Source: a virus
Reading direction: 5' to 3' (one strand)
DNA: 22,088 nucleotides
Virus record (IMG/VR): IMGVR_UViG_3300018421_000251
Coordinates: 1-22,088 of that record
Positions 3,836 to 15,909 of the stretch are shown piece by piece. How positions within the stretch are numbered: position 1 is the first letter of the stretch; every line of letters starts with the position of its first letter. The notes beneath the pieces are model-generated. The model did not search any database. It was given only the letters and a program-made list of their open reading frames with translations, and was not told the origin of the DNA. A program made the translations under genes and the position numbers.

Positions 3836-3867
3836 AAGAAAAACCCCCCGATCCGAAGACCGAGGGG
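3836..3867 (-). terminator. Strong intrinsic terminator after the capsid gene
   Basis: On the minus strand a 10-bp stem CCCCTCGGTC / GATCGGGGGG (two G-U pairs) encloses a TTCG tetraloop closed by C-G, followed by TTTTTCTTTG. It ends the scaffold-capsid transcript and protects the abundant message. The next gene has its own element just beyond. Confidence 0.94.
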
Positions 3868-3886
3868 CTGGGTAGTGAGAGAACAC

Positions 3887-9288: not shown

Positions 9289-10113
9289 TTAAACTTTTGT
9301 TATAATTCTGACTAGTGCTGCGAGATCATCGGCACTAATACCTGTCTGATCAAAATTAACCTTAACCGTGATTGTCTCACCCGGGTCGAAACTAATTGGG
9401 GGATCAAATGCTTTTACAAATCCCGTGGCACCACTACCACCACCGGCTTTTGTTATAGACATTGAACCAGAATCTACTAATTGATTGTTTTTATAGACTC
9501 CTCCGATAAACTCGTAAGTTGAGCCGTCAGAAGCATTAAATTGAAATTGGCATGTTAAATGTGTTATCGTTCCACTTAGCGGCATTCTATATCCGTAATC
9601 ATTTGTAGATCCATTAACAGTTGTGGTCTCAATGGGCGTAGAGTTTGAAAAACTAGGATTATAGCCATAATGAAGAAAAGAAGCAGCCCCTAATTCATCA
9701 ACAGGTCTGTATGAAAGATTACCACCTCCATCTGTTGCTATAACTTCGTCGGCATTGCCATCAGCATCTGGCAATTGATAGACAGGGCTCCCACTATCTG
9801 TAATTACAATGTTAGAACCCGATACGGTCCCAACATCGATAGAGCTTCCATAAAAGTTTCCTTGATTATCAATAACAGTATCTTCGCCCGGCGGCGCTCC
9901 TGCGATCTTGATTGAGTCAGCAAAATAAAAAGTCGAACCGGATATTCCCAAAGAAGACGAAATATGTTGATTATCTATCTGAAGACGAACAGACCCAGAT
10001 GTCTGAAATTCAATCTGGTCTTCGCCAAAATCAATCGCAGTATCTCTTTGAGTGTCGTCCTTAGCCTTAAGGTCCCCAATAACTTGAGGTCCTACTGAAA
10101 ATTTATATGCCAT
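9289..10113 (-). CDS. Fibre-type protein with a beta-jelly-roll-like C-terminus
   Basis: The 274 residues start MAYKFSVGPQVIGDL, close to the 304-residue protein (MAYKFQIGAAQLSG). Short beta-stem strands follow (30-130), with YQLPDADGNADEVIATDGGGNLSYRP (112-137), a typical 'LP..DG..~~VL.TDG.G.LS' fibre junction. The C-terminal half (148-274) has long alternating strands including MPLSGTITHLTCQFQF, FIGGVYKNNQLVDSGS and FDPGETITVKVNF, which look like a C1q/TNF or BclA-type jelly roll. That fold in phages often binds receptors or decorates virions. GAGGATTATAGA precedes the ATG. The next gene starts 15 bases after the stop. Confidence 0.85.
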   Translation of the reverse strand: MAYKFSVGPQVIGDLKAKDDTQRDTAIDFGEDQIEFQTSGSVRLQIDNQHISSSLGISGSTFYFADSIKIAGAPPGEDTVIDNQGNFYGSSIDVGTVSGSNIVITDSGSPVYQLPDADGNADEVIATDGGGNLSYRPVDELGAASFLHYGYNPSFSNSTPIETTTVNGSTNDYGYRMPLSGTITHLTCQFQFNASDGSTYEFIGGVYKNNQLVDSGSMSITKAGGGSGATGFVKAFDPPISFDPGETITVKVNFDQTGISADDLAALVRIITKV

Positions 10114-10153
10114 TCTATAATCCTCGCCTTATCCATAATTAGGCATTTGATAA

Positions 10154-10184
10154 TAAAAAGGGAGGTTGCCCGAAGGCAACCTCC
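10154..10184 (-). terminator. Strong intrinsic terminator with UUCG loop
   Basis: On the minus strand a perfect 10-bp stem GGAGGTTGCC / GGCAACCTCC encloses TTCG and is followed by CTTTTTATT. It closes the 304-residue gene and isolates it from the 274-residue gene. This is a textbook rho-independent terminator. Confidence 0.93.
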
Positions 10185-10198
10185 AAGAAAGAATAGGA

Positions 10199-10220
10199 CA
10201 AAAATCCAATCCGAAGATTA
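10199..10220 (-). terminator. Minor UUCG hairpin at the 304-residue gene stop
   Basis: On the minus strand AATC-TTCG-GATT (5 bp with a T-G closing pair) overlaps the TAA stop and is followed by GATTTTTG. It is A/T-rich and weak, and precedes a much stronger hairpin 25 bases on. Confidence 0.35.
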
Positions 10221-11132
10221 GATAATGTACCAGTCACCAGCACCAGCAGAACCTGAGAATACACAGGTTACAGCAGCGCCTTTTGCTTCAAGAACAAGAA
10301 GATCGCCATTGGTTTCATCAGCCATAGTCTCACCAGCAACAGAAGCAGAAAGTGTAATAGCACCATTATTGATGCTTTTAATTCTAACAACTTTACCGTC
10401 TGCACCAGCAGGAAGGTCTAACTGGAAAGCGGTTGCACTGTTTGCAATAGCAAAACCAACGCTAGAACCGATAGTGGCAGTAGAAGTATATGTTCTTGTT
10501 TCAACATTAATGACAGCACCAACAACATTTTCAACGTAAATATTAGCCCAACGCTTAGTAGCGTCTCCTAAGTTAAGTGAGTTGTCAACATCTGGAAGCC
10601 AGTTTTGAGCGATTTCTGCATCAGAACCTGCGTTAATAAAGAACGCAGAACCAGAAACATCACCAGAGGTTGAGATAGCACCATCTGCAACGGTAACTTG
10701 GAATTCACCAGAAGCACCAACAATAAGACCAGTGTGACCTGAGCCGTTAACGGTGAAACCAGCAGAAGCAGTTGCTTGTGAACTGAATGTTGAAACGTCT
10801 GTGTTATTAGCACCAAGTGTGATTGCATTGTTGTCTAAAGTAATAAGACTGGTATCACTTCTAGAACCAATGGTTTTTCCGTCTTCAATTTGAAGATCCA
10901 AGCCATCAAAACCAAGTGAAGCAGAAACATCACCTTCAACATCAACAGAATTTGCTGCAAGAGTCATAAGGTTGGTGTCACCATTAACACCAATGGTTTT
11001 TCCGTCTTGAATAACAAGATCGAAACCTGAAAGAGTAGACGAACCAGAAATTGTAGATTCACCTACAACGGTGCCCTCTTGAGTTAAATTACCCGAGAGT
11101 TGCGCTGCACCAATTTGAAATTTATAAGCCAT
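10218..11132 (-). CDS. Fibre-type protein with a 41-residue internal repeat
   Basis: The 304 residues start MAYKFQIGAAQLSG. Two tandem units of 41 residues carry DLVIQDGKTIG (38-48) and DLQIEDGKTIG (79-89), each followed by a D-T-x-L-x-T-L strand. The segment SLNLGDATKRWANIYVENV (185-203) is the well-known 'LG...RW..IY' motif of phage fibre heads. The C-terminus (238-304) has the same LP-x(5)-G-x-V-x-x-I-K layout and W-Y-I-I end as the 218- and 318-residue proteins. It has GGAGG 9 bases upstream of the ATG, its own leader and a strong terminator behind it, so it may form a separate and abundant transcript. A receptor-binding or decoration role is likely but not shown. Confidence 0.85.
   Translation of the reverse strand: MAYKFQIGAAQLSGNLTQEGTVVGESTISGSSTLSGFDLVIQDGKTIGVNGDTNLMTLAANSVDVEGDVSASLGFDGLDLQIEDGKTIGSRSDTSLITLDNNAITLGANNTDVSTFSSQATASAGFTVNGSGHTGLIVGASGEFQVTVADGAISTSGDVSGSAFFINAGSDAEIAQNWLPDVDNSLNLGDATKRWANIYVENVVGAVINVETRTYTSTATIGSSVGFAIANSATAFQLDLPAGADGKVVRIKSINNGAITLSASVAGETMADETNGDLLVLEAKGAAVTCVFSGSAGAGDWYII
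10867..11008 (-). repeat. Direct repeat inside the 304-residue fibre gene
   Basis: The plus-strand 19-mer ccaatggtttttccgtctt occurs at 10867-10885 and again at 10990-11008, an offset of 123 bases or 41 codons. It encodes the DGKTIG core of the two tandem protein repeats, so the duplication is visible at DNA level and is probably recent or kept by recombination. Confidence 0.85.
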
Positions 11133-11146
11133 AATTTATATCCTCC

Positions 11147-11165
11147 ATAAAAACGCGCCATGGCG
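11147..11165 (-). terminator. Weak hairpin with short T-run in the 304-residue gene leader
   Basis: On the minus strand ACGC / GCGT (4 bp) encloses CATGGC and runs into TTTTTATGG. It lies downstream of the intergenic element and just before the ribosome binding site GGAGG, so it may be a leaky attenuator or only chance. Confidence 0.25.
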
Positions 11166-11211
11166 TGTGATGCCGATGAATACGGGATCCAACCGACACC
11201 ACTGGCGCTGT

Positions 11212-11221
11212 AATAAATAGG
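11212..11221 (-). promoter_or_regulatory. Candidate late element in the leader of the 304-residue gene
   Basis: The plus strand reads AATAAATAGG (minus strand CCTATTTATT), 79 bases from the ATG, in the largest intergenic gap of the window. The gap (11133-11243) holds nothing else convincing except a weak hairpin near 11152-11165. Confidence 0.4.
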
Positions 11222-11243
11222 ACATAAATGTCGTAAGTGACCG

Positions 11244-12200
11244 CTAGTATATAAAGAATTTATCTGAGCCATTTGTATAGATACTTATGGCTCCATATGG
11301 CGACTCTAGGTAAACTTCTGAAACACCATCAATCAAATCAGCAGCAGAGGCAGTGATCTTGATATTGTATGTTTGGGCATCTCCGCCCTCGTCTTTGATT
11401 ATGAAGAACTGTCCGTTTTGAAGTGTATTGGCAACAGGCAAATTAATCGTACTCGCAGCACCAATTGTCGCAGTATCAACACCAATAACATAATCCGTCG
11501 CAGATATTGTGTAAGGAGAAGACGTTACAGATTCTCTTGCCCTGATAATACTGCCGTTTACTAAAATACTTCCTGTAAATTGGTGAGTATCATCATCTGT
11601 GTCTCCAAACTTAGTTGATCCAGATGCTTCTAGATTAATGACAGTTTTGTTGGTGACATTGATATTTAGTTCATTTGCATTGATGGTGCCGCTCACATCA
11701 AGTGTCCCAGTCAATACAAGAGTATTACTAGCGCTCAAGAACAAAAGATTTGCTGAGCCGCTCGTTGAGTTCGATCCAGTTAAGAACTGTAAAGAGCCGG
11801 TAGGTCCTGCTGCTTGGCCTGAGCCGCCACCGCCGCCTCCTGCTGAAGATGTAACAACAATTCTACCAGAAGGATCAATTCCCAAATAAGAAGTTGTTGC
11901 AATATTCCCTGATACTGGTTCGCTCACAGAAAGATGAGTAAATGAACCAGTTCTTGTTGAAAATGTATCGGTGCCTTGATCAAAAGTGAAATTTATATTT
12001 CCCTTTAAATTAAATTCTCCGACTTGAGATGTCGGAGCAGCGCCAAAGAAATAAGGAATTCTACCTTCGTCAGCGTTTGTTTGTTCTGCATGACTAACAT
12101 TGATAATGTCAGTGCCATCACCATCGTATGCACCACTAAAGGCGCCCGATAATATTAAGGCACTTTCGCCAACATTTCCAGATAATATGTTATAAGCCAT
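11244..12200 (-). CDS. Fibre-type protein with MAYN anchor
   Basis: The 318 residues begin MAYNILSGNVGES, which resembles the starts of three nearby fibre genes. GDGTDIINV (27-35) is a degenerate form of the GDGSGLTGV stem repeat seen in the 771-residue protein. A Gly7-like linker (about 121-127) leads into a C-terminal half (131-318) paralogous to the whole 218-residue protein: AGPTGSLQFL, GTINANELNINVTNKTV (171-187), STKFGDTDDDTHQFTGS, and a terminal LPVANTLQNGQFFIIKDE...FFIY domain. It is most likely a trimeric beta-fibre or head/tail decoration protein. GAGGAATAACTC precedes the ATG. A gap of about 111 bases follows. Confidence 0.84.
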   Translation of the reverse strand: MAYNILSGNVGESALILSGAFSGAYDGDGTDIINVSHAEQTNADEGRIPYFFGAAPTSQVGEFNLKGNINFTFDQGTDTFSTRTGSFTHLSVSEPVSGNIATTSYLGIDPSGRIVVTSSAGGGGGGSGQAAGPTGSLQFLTGSNSTSGSANLLFLSASNTLVLTGTLDVSGTINANELNINVTNKTVINLEASGSTKFGDTDDDTHQFTGSILVNGSIIRARESVTSSPYTISATDYVIGVDTATIGAASTINLPVANTLQNGQFFIIKDEGGDAQTYNIKITASAADLIDGVSEVYLESPYGAISIYTNGSDKFFIY

Positions 12201-12213
12201 GAGTTATTCCTCA

Positions 12214-12226
12214 TAATAAATATTAT
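12214..12226 (-). promoter_or_regulatory. Candidate late element upstream of the 318-residue gene
   Basis: The plus strand reads ATAATAAATATTA in the 26-base gap, 14 bases from the ATG at 12200. It has T instead of the final G of the recurring TAAATAG core, so it is a weaker copy of the intergenic element. Confidence 0.35.
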
Positions 12227-12236
12227 CTAGATAATA
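12221..12236. repeat. 16-bp perfect palindrome at the end of the 218-residue gene
   Basis: TATTATCTAGATAATA is its own reverse complement and contains the TAG stop of the 218-residue gene. It abuts the AATAAATA element before the next start. There is no T-run hairpin, so it is not a clear terminator. A protein-binding site or simple A/T chance are both possible. Confidence 0.5.
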
Positions 12237-12883
12237 AACCAATTAGTTCCACCATCAGAATAAAGAGTTACAGAAGCATTGTCACCAGAAAGACCAACGA
12301 ATGTTCCATGGTCAACAGTATCGCTTGAAGATCTTGAAATAGCAATTTGGTCTGTTGGTGTCTCGGGCCGACCACCACTAAAATCAAATTCGTCTTTAAT
12401 AACAATAATTCTACCCGGAAAGACATTAGCAGCAGGCAGTGTGATCGTTGTACCTTCACTGGCTGAATATCCAATAATATAATCTGCCGGGCCCACTGTG
12501 TGGCTGGTGGCAGTTAATCTGTAATAAGAAAAGTACACTCCGCCGGTTATGCTAACACTACCGGTGAATTGATGAAAATCATCTTCTGTGTCTCCGAACT
12601 TTGTCGATCCAGATACATCAATATTTGTGACTGTCTTATTGGTCACATTAATATTAAGTTCATCAGCATTTATTGTGCCACTAACAGTTAATGTGCCTTT
12701 TAGAGTTAACTCTGGCAAAGTGGCGTCAGTTTCGGCCGATGAACCAGTGTTGAAAACTAATCTAGAAGAACCAGTAATATCTGTCCCAGCATGCAAAAAC
12801 TGAATAGATCCCGTAGGACCTGCTCCGGAGGTGCCTCCACCAGTACTATCGCATTCAATATAAGCCCAGCCGAATTCAGCCAT
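12227..12883 (-). CDS. Fibre-type protein, paralogue of the 318-residue neighbour
   Basis: The 218 residues match the last 190 residues of the next gene almost end to end. Shared blocks are AGPTGSIQFL (21-30), GTINADELNINVTNKTV (69-85), SGSTKFGDTEDD (91-102) with HQFTGS, and a C-terminal domain with LPAANVFPGRIIVIKDE (149-165) ending in LYSDGGTNWFII. Such a Gly-anchored beta domain closing in W-x-I-I is common at the C-terminus of phage fibre and decoration proteins and probably trimerises. It has its own short N-terminus (MAEFGWAYIECDSTGGG) instead of the MAY start of the neighbours. The TAG stop lies in a 16-bp palindrome. Confidence 0.83.
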   Translation of the reverse strand: MAEFGWAYIECDSTGGGTSGAGPTGSIQFLHAGTDITGSSRLVFNTGSSAETDATLPELTLKGTLTVSGTINADELNINVTNKTVTNIDVSGSTKFGDTEDDFHQFTGSVSITGGVYFSYYRLTATSHTVGPADYIIGYSASEGTTITLPAANVFPGRIIVIKDEFDFSGGRPETPTDQIAISRSSSDTVDHGTFVGLSGDNASVTLYSDGGTNWFII

Positions 12884-13328: not shown

Positions 13329-13341
13329 ATTAAATAGTTTA
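13329..13341 (-). promoter_or_regulatory. Candidate late element upstream of the 142-residue gene
   Basis: The plus strand reads ATTAAATAGTTTA (minus strand TAAACTATTTAAT), overlapping the bS21 stop and 17 bases from the next ATG. The minus strand continues ACGATAGGAG. The TAAATAG core recurs in other gaps of this window. Whether it is a promoter and in which direction is unproven. Confidence 0.45.
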
Positions 13342-13545
13342 ACGGCGTCGTTTCGCCATTTCCTTTCTGTGTCTCGCAATTGCTCTTTTCTTAGCCAATC
13401 GTCTTTTAACAGATGGCTTCATGTAATGTCTTCTATCACGGCACTCTTGGATGATTCCAAGTTTTTTGCATTTTCTTGAAAACTTCTTTACGGCTCTCTC
13501 GACTGGTTCGCCTTTTTTGATCTTATATTCGTAGTTGTGTCCCAT
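13339..13545 (-). CDS. rpsU: Ribosomal protein bS21, phage-encoded
   Basis: The 68-residue basic protein aligns over nearly its whole length with cellular bS21. The core is GEPVERAVKKFSRKCKKLGI (12-31), followed by RDRRHYMKPSVKRR and a Lys/Arg-rich end. bS21 sits on the 30S platform near the anti-Shine-Dalgarno region and promotes initiation. I choose the ATG at 13545, which overlaps the upstream TAA as TAATG. The frame also opens at a TTG at 13572, but that would add nine residues of the upstream gene's sequence and lacks a site. bS21 genes are known in marine phages, including the Pelagibacter myovirus HTVC008M. Here it is embedded among structural genes, so late expression is likely. Confidence 0.94.
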   Translation of the reverse strand: MGHNYEYKIKKGEPVERAVKKFSRKCKKLGIIQECRDRRHYMKPSVKRRLAKKRAIARHRKEMAKRRR

Positions 13546-13967
13546 TACTTTTTCTCGTTCATTTTCTGCCAAATGGCAGATGTTTTATTCATTAATTTGG
13601 AAATGTCAACACCAGCGTCGTTTGGAGCGACTCCGCTAAGAGCGCCCTGTCCTTGTGTATTTGTAGGTGCGGGGGCTGGTGTTGTTCCTTCGAAAAGATT
13701 GATACCATTATAGGCATCTTTTCCAATGGAGTCCATTAGAGTTTTTCTTTTTGCCGCAAGTCTTGCTTTGGCCTCCTCATCGGTTTCCAAGCGAGGTTGT
13801 GGCGGTTGATATTGTTGCTGCTCTACAATTGGCTGAGTGGGTGATTGTTGTGTACCCTTCATGACCTCTGCGATAATCGAAGAAAGAGTTCCATCTTCGA
13901 ACATAACTTCTTTGATGCACTCTTTGATCAGCGGCTTCAATACTTTTTTTAATTCGTTTTTATTCAT
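13545..13967 (-). CDS. Helical/linker protein of unknown function
   Basis: The 140 residues begin with an amphipathic helix (MNKNELKKVLKPLIKECIKE, then an acidic helix up to about residue 36). A Gln/Pro-rich linker follows (42-60), then a charged helix (62-80), then NGINLFEGTTP (about 87-97), a Pro/Thr/Gly linker and a short C-terminal helix. I do not recognise a family. The helix-linker-helix layout suggests an assembly adaptor or internal head protein. GAGG precedes the ATG by 4 bases. The junction with the previous gene is AAAAATGAATAA, the same string seen at the micro-ORF. Its stop overlaps the bS21 start as TAATG. Confidence 0.8.
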   Translation of the reverse strand: MNKNELKKVLKPLIKECIKEVMFEDGTLSSIIAEVMKGTQQSPTQPIVEQQQYQPPQPRLETDEEAKARLAAKRKTLMDSIGKDAYNGINLFEGTTPAPAPTNTQGQGALSGVAPNDAGVDISKLMNKTSAIWQKMNEKK

Positions 13968-14869: not shown

Positions 14870-15478
14870 TTAATCCTTTAAAATTTTGTTAAATAAATTA
14901 TCAATTTTATTTTCTTTGTGTTCTCGCATCCTGATTGGATCAGCTTTGTAATTCTTTGGATAAACGAAGGCATTCGGAGTTGATGGTTCAGAAACAATGT
15001 CGAAGCAGATCAATTGAAAATCATTCTCGACAACAGTCTTTCCCATACTCTCACGAACCGAACCAAGGCCTCTTGAAGAAATGCCTAACTTCACTCCGGC
15101 ATTAATTAGTTCTTTCAATGTTCTTCCGGATGGAGTGTCAAGAACTTTAATTTTGCCCATGACATCCTTGCCTTCCCACCAGACATCTGTAACAATATGA
15201 GAGACATTTTTAAGATTCACAACGGAATCATCTGGGTGGTCAAGTTCGCCACAAGCACGATTATCATCAACTACTTTTTTGTAGTTCTTCAATTCACGAC
15301 TTAAAACGTCGTAAGGATAAACTCGACCATTTCCGTTCTGTTTGTCGGCGGTTTGGATACGTCCGGTAAGATACATAGCACCATTAGAGATCTCCCGCTT
15401 CTCTCGTTCAGTCAAGAGATCGGGGCACATCCCGTTGGGGCATAGTTCGTAAAATTCTTGTAAAAGTTGTTTAGACAT
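14870..15478 (-). CDS. 21: Prohead core protease, T4 gp21 type
   Basis: This serine protease cuts scaffold, core and capsid proteins after (L/I)-x-E during head maturation. The 202 residues are close to T4 gp21 (212). The catalytic His is in ELDHP (H81), the Ser is in the strongly conserved LGISSRGLGS block (S134 or S135), and the DIVSEPSTPNA segment (160-170) is the family's C-terminal core motif. The N-terminal region has GRIQTADKQNGNGRVYP (39-55), also typical. Its own C-terminus is basic and helical and may be removed on activation, as in T4. The ribosome binding site GAGG lies about 7 bases upstream. The next gene follows after 4 bases. Confidence 0.95.
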   Translation of the reverse strand: MSKQLLQEFYELCPNGMCPDLLTEREKREISNGAMYLTGRIQTADKQNGNGRVYPYDVLSRELKNYKKVVDDNRACGELDHPDDSVVNLKNVSHIVTDVWWEGKDVMGKIKVLDTPSGRTLKELINAGVKLGISSRGLGSVRESMGKTVVENDFQLICFDIVSEPSTPNAFVYPKNYKADPIRMREHKENKIDNLFNKILKD

Positions 15479-15489
15479 TTTGTATCCTC

Positions 15490-15516
15490 AAAAGAAAAGC
15501 GGGCGCAACCCGCCCG
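15490..15516 (-). terminator. Terminator-like hairpin upstream of the protease gene
   Basis: On the minus strand a 6-bp stem CGGGCG / CGCCCG encloses GGTTG and is followed by CTTTTCTTTT. An alternative register GCGGG / CCCGC uses the same bases. It separates the portal-side genes from the protease and lies between the micro-ORF stop and the protease ribosome binding site. It may be partial, since no obvious strong promoter follows. Confidence 0.65.
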
Positions 15517-15518
15517 AG

Positions 15519-15572
15519 TTAAGATCCGCTGCAACAGCGACGAACTGGTTGTAACATCCATTTCTTATTCAT
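15519..15572 (-). CDS. 17-residue micro-ORF ending at a terminator hairpin
   Basis: The frame reads MNKKWMLQPVRRCCSGS and stops with TAA. It overlaps the preceding gene's stop by 8 bases through the string AAAAATGAATAA and has a perfect AAGGAG 6 bases upstream. A GC-rich hairpin followed by T residues begins 2 bases after its stop and lies before the prohead protease. It could be a small structural or regulatory peptide with an Arg-Arg-Cys-Cys core, or a leader peptide whose translation affects read-through into the protease gene. Both are inference. Chance is possible for such a short frame, but the ribosome binding site and layout argue for translation. Confidence 0.6.
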   Translation of the reverse strand: MNKKWMLQPVRRCCSGS

Positions 15573-15909
15573 TTTTTGCTCCTTGGTTAATCTTAATGCC
15601 ATCATCGTTCACAAGCATACTTAAAAAATATGATGTGCCTGATGCCATCCACCCACAAATTAGAAAGTTTGCGAATGTATAATCAAATGTAAATAGTTCT
15701 GTAAAGCCGTTTAACGTAAATAAAAGGGCTCCAACCCAAAATCCCATACACATAGGGCAGTGCCATACTTTACCCCATCCACGATAAGCGTCCTTAGCAG
15801 GACGAATCTGATCGAAGATTGAGCCATATACAAGTATTTGAGTCAGCCCGTATGCGGCCAGAATAAACCACAACCAACCAACATCAAGTTCTAAAAAATT
15901 TACGTTCAT
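15565..15909 (-). CDS. Small membrane protein with a CPMCMGFW motif (DUF1360-like)
   Basis: The 114-residue protein has three likely membrane segments at about 11-31, 54-69 and 77-99. The motif HCPMCMGFWVG (50-60) opens the second segment. A C-x-x-C-x-G-F-W-x pattern at the mouth of a helix is what I associate with the DUF1360 family of small membrane proteins in phages and Bacillus, whose function is unknown. I cannot verify this by search. GAGGT precedes the ATG by 5 bases. It lies in the head operon between the 205-residue protein and a 17-codon ORF that overlaps its stop. A membrane protein here is odd and may be a passenger gene acting on the host envelope. Confidence 0.85.
   Translation of the reverse strand: MNVNFLELDVGWLWFILAAYGLTQILVYGSIFDQIRPAKDAYRGWGKVWHCPMCMGFWVGALLFTLNGFTELFTFDYTFANFLICGWMASGTSYFLSMLVNDDGIKINQGAKNE
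15579..15584 (-). promoter_or_regulatory. Consensus Shine-Dalgarno AAGGAG of the 17-codon ORF
   Basis: On the minus strand AAGGAG is followed by CAAAAA and then ATG, which is ideal spacing of 6 bases. It lies inside the end of the membrane-protein gene, where no translation start would be needed unless the short downstream ORF is real. Confidence 0.75.

Follow-up and report, generated by a model that had tools for sequence, protein, structure and literature searches.

Why would a phage keep a reading frame of only 17 codons, closely followed by a small hairpin, among its head genes? This question is raised by a 22,088-nt stretch of viral DNA (IMG/VR record IMGVR_UViG_3300018421_000251, positions 1 to 22,088), hereafter called the window. 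A first-pass annotation, which named no strand, had described a 17-codon frame with an AAGGAG ribosome binding site that overlaps the previous stop codon, ends two bases before a hairpin and lies just ahead of the prohead protease gene. We find each of these features on the minus strand (Table 1). The frame, here termed the micro-ORF, begins inside the upstream gene g114 and shares the final 8 nt of that gene, and the two-base distance holds for an alternative pairing (CGGGCG/CGCCCG at 15516-15500), the stem of which begins 2 nt past the stop. The genes on this strand follow the order terminase, T4-type portal, two unassigned proteins, g114, micro-ORF, gp21 (the prohead protease), two more proteins, the ribosomal protein bS21 and, later, the Gp23 major capsid protein.

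Table 1. Features of the micro-ORF locus, in window coordinates.
Feature	Position	Strand	Remarks
g114, 114 aa, DUF1360-like / PHROG_781 membrane protein, invariant CxxC	15565..15909	-	nearest conserved partner gene; stop 15567-15565
Shine-Dalgarno AAGGAG	15579..15584	-	6 nt 5' of micro-ORF ATG; within g114 3' end
Micro-ORF, 17 codons	15519..15572	-	peptide MNKKWMLQPVRRCCSGS; ATG 15572-15570, TAA 15521-15519
Micro-ORF stop UAA, +4 C at 15518	15519..15521	-	weak termination context
UNRYG-loop hairpin GCGGG-TTGCG-CCCGC	15499..15513	-	first pair 8 nt past last codon, 11 nt from that codon's first base
gp21 prohead protease gene, downstream	14870..15478	-	Peptidase_S77, E 2.4e-31

Distribution and coding signal of the micro-ORF

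On both strands of the window, the micro-ORF is the sole ATG frame of 12-25 codons with a strong Shine-Dalgarno (SD) sequence. Taken as a whole, the 131-nt stretch does not stand out in its predicted minimum free energy fold (z 0.00), and the case for the micro-ORF rests for this reason on comparative evidence. Loci for the conservation analysis were fetched through gp21 or g114 and never through the peptide, and those recovered by the peptide pattern were left out of the conservation statistics. The micro-ORF is present in 231 of 236 loci, the window itself counting as one and the other 235 having been fetched by gp21 or g114; the copies share ancestry, and counts across the family are thus not independent. 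Four of the five loci lacking a call (L010, L341, L381 and L293) are truncated by contig ends. The fifth, L338, carries a copy that has diverged, recognised by eye as IKKWFLPQTNTRNCCKGS, and its hairpin is the same and equally far away. Relatives retaining the flanking genes without the frame, which would speak against a gene, were looked for and no case was found: every untruncated g114 locus has it.

A search with the peptide pattern recovered at least 117 credible additional copies in viral contigs. Three versions of the peptide run by tblastn against GenBank phages returned nothing credible. Among 84,980 bacterial and archaeal genomes the pattern gave only matches that look like chance, the 28 in bacterial genomes being without the W and L context. 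Microcystis phage Mel-JY01, Flavobacterium phage immuto, and certain Synechococcus and Caulobacter phages, whose gp21 is the nearest, carry neither g114 nor the micro-ORF, and profile and covariance-model searches of Pfam, PHROG and Rfam found no match for the peptide or the hairpin.

Coding statistics were computed on 188 distinct copies. Entropy is 1.43 at third codon positions against 0.56 and 0.52 at the other two; overall pN/pS is 0.27, with pS near saturation. In 64 near copies pS is 0.68, pN 0.13 and dN/dS 0.08, and values in the two wrong frames exceed 1. Ser13 and Ser15 are each encoded by both AGY and TCN codons. As judged from these substitution patterns, the comparison shows that the peptide core is under selection as a protein. 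The frame usually spans 16-19 codons. Its N-terminal part is variable, usually with 3-11 residues before the W, and conservation lies toward the C terminus, where the pattern [KR]-W-x-[LI]-[QR]-P-V-x-x-C-x-x-G-x is fixed and C11 and G14 (core numbering) are invariant in all 188 copies. Exactly two cysteines occur in 187 copies and three in the remaining one. The second Cys is at position 12 in 171 copies and at position 15, together with K/R12, in 17. On a quick gp21 tree this swap requires at least 13 changes, compared with 14-17 under shuffled labels, a count that recombination or a poorly resolved tree could have inflated; the two-Cys rule holds in every copy whatever the tree says.

On this comparative evidence, the micro-ORF is a genuine gene, near-universal across a large, uncultured group of T4-like water phages. 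Its presence in the fetched loci and its coding signal lend strong support to the suggestion that it encodes a real tiny peptide which gene callers overlook. Within the head-gene region of this abundant group it ranks among the most conserved features, yet it is too short for gene callers and absent from Pfam, PHROGs and Rfam, and further genes of fewer than 30 codons are probably hidden in the same genomes. The site is also an insertion hot spot, where many relatives (L002, L006, L026, L302, L312, L315) carry unrelated genes upstream or downstream of the micro-ORF. The micro-ORF persists despite such insertions, mostly together with its hairpin.

The neighbouring genes

The micro-ORF lies directly downstream of g114 in nearly all loci. 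Both are present in 228 loci and neither in 10; contig ends, an upstream stretch that is short or has been replaced (L078) and the diverged L338 copy account for the five loci where they disagree. Cysteines C51 and C54 of g114 are invariant in 226/226 sequences, with no further fully conserved Cys. The structural model (pLDDT 88.5) depicts a small membrane protein with predicted helices at residues 10-28, 41-50, 52-69 and 79-99. Against the Pfam profile PF07098 (DUF1360), g114 of the window scores 17.4 bits, under the cut-off of 21, and its relatives reach E<=0.01 in 62 of 101 cases (best 1.1e-6). The closest viral folds to the model are DUF1360 (E 0.0076), and a fold search against the PDB gave nothing. 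As judged by profile and predicted fold, g114 is probably related to DUF1360.

Phages of Mycobacterium, Gordonia, Streptomyces and Microbacterium have a DUF1360-like gene directly, or one gene, before the portal gene (L396, L397, L398, L392, L394), which suggests a role as a general membrane factor in head assembly. These actinophage DUF1360 / PHROG_781 proteins have the CxxC, but no micro-ORF follows their genes; it is confined to the T4-like relatives. In a 595-kb uncultured phage (LR756511, L393:1492-2110), a g114 relative (E 2e-12) is followed by an overlapping gene for a small CxxC...CxxC zinc-ribbon protein in place of the micro-ORF.

Downstream, gp21 is directly adjacent in 136/187 copies, and the remaining copies have other genes inserted. 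A frameshift fusion of the micro-ORF with g114 was considered and rejected: the g114 stop lies at -13, -14, -16, -17 and other distances from the core, in a frame that differs by lineage, and none of 348 loci has an in-frame fusion.

The hairpin and the stop codon

A hairpin at a fixed register, 8-22 nt past core codon 15, has all five pairs in 146 of 188 copies. In 158/187 copies a hairpin of some kind has its base at 6-10 nt, and in 29/187 (about 15%) the hairpin is lost. At the fixed register 89% of cells are paired, against 40-47% when the register is slid. Pair covariation, calculated on 30 diverse copies picked among hairpin carriers, is 0.354 compared with 0.098 in shuffled alignments (0/500 as high) and 0.009-0.132 in slid versions, with both-sided changes in four of the five pairs. 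The loop reads UNRYG in 134 of the 146 in-register copies, and the same hairpin occurs 157 times at the micro-ORF site against 4 times elsewhere on the same strand of 1.72 Mb. Gene insertions on either flank do not separate it from the micro-ORF. As far as pairing and covariation can tell, these data show a specific hairpin anchored 8 nt past the last core codon. In many hairpin-less copies gp21 starts 5-7 nt past codon 15, and residue 13 is there usually Lys, within AAR GGN (Fisher p 3e-6), a sequence that we infer can act as SD for gp21.

Three other roles for this region were set aside. A hairpin inside the Arg-Arg-Cys-Cys codons is lost when Ser13 is TCN, and is not general; sequestration of an SD sequence by the conserved CUC past the stop does not agree with copies that lack CUC and retain the same downstream SD; and attenuation at Cys codons is unlikely, since the second Cys moves while W, P and G are kept.

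Elsewhere, the minus strand of the window has two long hairpins with a UUCG loop and a T-run, at 3842-3869 and 10161-10184. Both are convincing intrinsic terminators, one following the major capsid gene and the other a structural gene.

The stop codon differs from those of other genes. C is found at +4 in 117 of 151 micro-ORF stops (77%) against 7% of 1588 other gene ends on the same contigs, and this context is documented as inefficient for termination (PMC5289835). The stops comprise 72 UGA, 52 UAG and 27 UAA, so that UGA or UAG make up 82% compared with 30% in other genes, and UAA 18% compared with 70%. Read against the documented effect of +4 C, the context of the micro-ORF stop is shown to be weak. 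The +4 C is retained in 27 of 28 hairpin-less copies. In about 20% of copies a sense codon replaces the stop, core codon 16 being variable, and 36 of these 37 keep the hairpin. A stop or a hairpin is thus present in 186/187 copies and both are missing in one (Fisher p 0.02), a link that is not significant in independent pairs.

Proposed ribosome slowing and its rivals

Taken together, the likeness of the peptide to known nascent-chain signals, the weak stop and the distance of the hairpin lead us to favour, with a confidence that approaches an even chance, a translated micro-gene between the DUF1360-like gene and gp21 whose terminal part serves to slow or hold the ribosome through its nascent chain. 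When codon 17 (core residue 15) occupies the P site and the stop the A site, the hairpin would sit at the mRNA entry channel and the core K-K-W-x-L-Q-P-V-R-R-C-C-x-G-S in the upper exit tunnel, with W at -12. A chain of 17 residues should still be inside the tunnel at this point. Nascent core, weak stop and hairpin would then delay release, and the pause might tune or time neighbouring output, most plausibly that of gp21 and the genes after it, and possibly also the membrane insertion of g114, whose 3' end the frame overlaps. The leader peptide of the first-pass annotation remains a candidate in this form. Its attenuator, as a T-tailed hairpin, does not hold across the family: at least five T among the 8 nt past the stem occur in only 49/146 in-register copies, the window copy being one with a T-run, the hairpin is lost in the share of copies given above, and the frame reads through it in 36/158.

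Several known systems resemble parts of this arrangement. Stem-loops of dnaX and HIV block A-site binding and pause E. coli ribosomes when located 11-12 nt from the P-site codon, 13 nt being inactive (PMC7282821), and the 11 nt found here, counted likewise from the first base of the P-site codon, fall within the active range. The micro-ORF differs from them in its stem of 5-6 bp, its conserved UNRYG loop, the absence of a slippery sequence and the position of the hairpin behind a stop codon. Such a short stem may pause ribosomes weakly, as an HIV stem reduced to six pairs lost most of its pausing effect (PMC8861025). The arrest leaders TnaC and SpeFL are likewise short ORFs with a conserved C-terminal half, and their slow release with the stop in the A site is what we propose for the micro-ORF; the 24-residue TnaC carries W12 and P24, its W lying 12 residues before the last codon, the same spacing as in the micro-ORF (PMC8429421). 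Unlike these leaders, the micro-ORF has no known sensed molecule and no constant downstream gene, and it has two obligatory Cys, an entry-channel hairpin and tolerance of a sense codon at the stop. The gene 60 nascent signal of T4, KKYKLQNNVRRS, which slows ribosomes when KKYK reaches the constriction (PMC11194080), bears a resemblance to KKW(M/K)LQPVRRCC of the micro-ORF, and both belong to T4-like phages and have a stop and a hairpin at the halt site, a putative one in the micro-ORF. This likeness, found post hoc, has a shuffle p of 0.0024 for the window peptide, 0/5000 for K4 variants and 0.28 for a distant variant. In contrast to gene 60, the micro-ORF lacks a Gly take-off codon next to the stop as well as a matching landing codon, and it does not split a gene; its motif lies much nearer the P site, the W at 12 residues compared with about 25-30 for the gene 60 motif (PMC5009743).

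Ribosome slowing is weakened by the two Cys, which are always kept and which a pause does not require, by the persistence of the peptide where the hairpin is lost and by the inconstancy of the downstream gene. The peptide may in addition bind metal or a partner. A close rival, in our view a tentative but serious possibility short of an even chance, is a trans-acting two-Cys microprotein of head morphogenesis, whose thiols, probably with metal, would bind a partner, most likely the CxxC of g114 supplying the other two ligands, with the weak stop and hairpin only setting dose or protecting the mRNA. The near-absolute two-Cys rule, the swap of the second Cys between positions 12 and 15, the invariant C51/C54 and the co-occurrence with g114 all agree with such a protein, as does retention of the peptide without the hairpin and where inserted genes separate it from g114. 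However, it leaves the weak stops, the fixed hairpin position and the redundancy of stop and hairpin unexplained; actinophage DUF1360 proteins have the CxxC without a micro-ORF, in-frame fusions with g114 are absent, co-occurrence is confounded by common descent and the swap count lies barely under that of shuffled labels. Both models may be partly true. More speculatively, and as a plausible minority view, nascent two-Cys peptide, weak stop and UNRYG hairpin would form a new cassette that jointly holds the ribosome at the g114 / gp21 boundary, the thiols acting as sensor or as bridge to the membrane protein. If the micro-ORF pauses ribosomes, it offers a compact natural set of nascent peptide, weak stop and entry-channel hairpin whose three parts are found apart in hundreds of natural variants. 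Acting in trans, it would instead be an exceptionally small conserved two-Cys protein with a named candidate partner, g114.

The remaining explanations seem to us improbable to different degrees. An ordinary intrinsic terminator or mRNA 3'-end hairpin, ending or stabilising the upstream transcript, would agree with CTTTTCTTTT directly past the stem in the window, yet we consider it unlikely and reject it as a general role: a T-run follows only one third of copies, the 5-6 bp stem and conserved UNRYG loop are unlike the long UUCG terminators of the window, the position is tied to a codon and not to a T-tract, and the frame reads through the hairpin in the copies counted above. Programmed readthrough, or bypassing of the gene 60 type, joining the peptide to gp21 is suggested by the weak stop with its nearby hairpin and by the copies with a sense codon at the stop. 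We hold it to be very improbable, given that the gp21 frame is random with respect to the micro-ORF (43/35/29), the C-terminal extension is not conserved, codon 15 equals gp21 codon 2 in 15 copies against 11.2 expected by chance and gp21 has its own SD and ATG. That the frame is a chance ORF or artefact, for which its length alone would allow, has a probability that we regard as negligible, being refuted by conservation, coding signal, hairpin and stop context.

Some further features of the window deserve mention. The bS21 gene (13339-13572, minus strand; PHROG 21469, E 7.8e-13) shares a strand with the head genes; published freshwater bS21 phages encode it on the opposite one, and Bacteroidetes are the predicted hosts of related bS21 phages (PMC9723584). 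SD sequences precede most genes of the window, and a Bacteroidetes host is for this reason not assumed for this phage. In addition, the adjacent ORFs 9289, 10218, 11244 and 12227 (9289-12883, minus strand) share stretches, for instance GTxNAxELNINVTNKTV in two of them, and resemble an array of paralogous structural genes.
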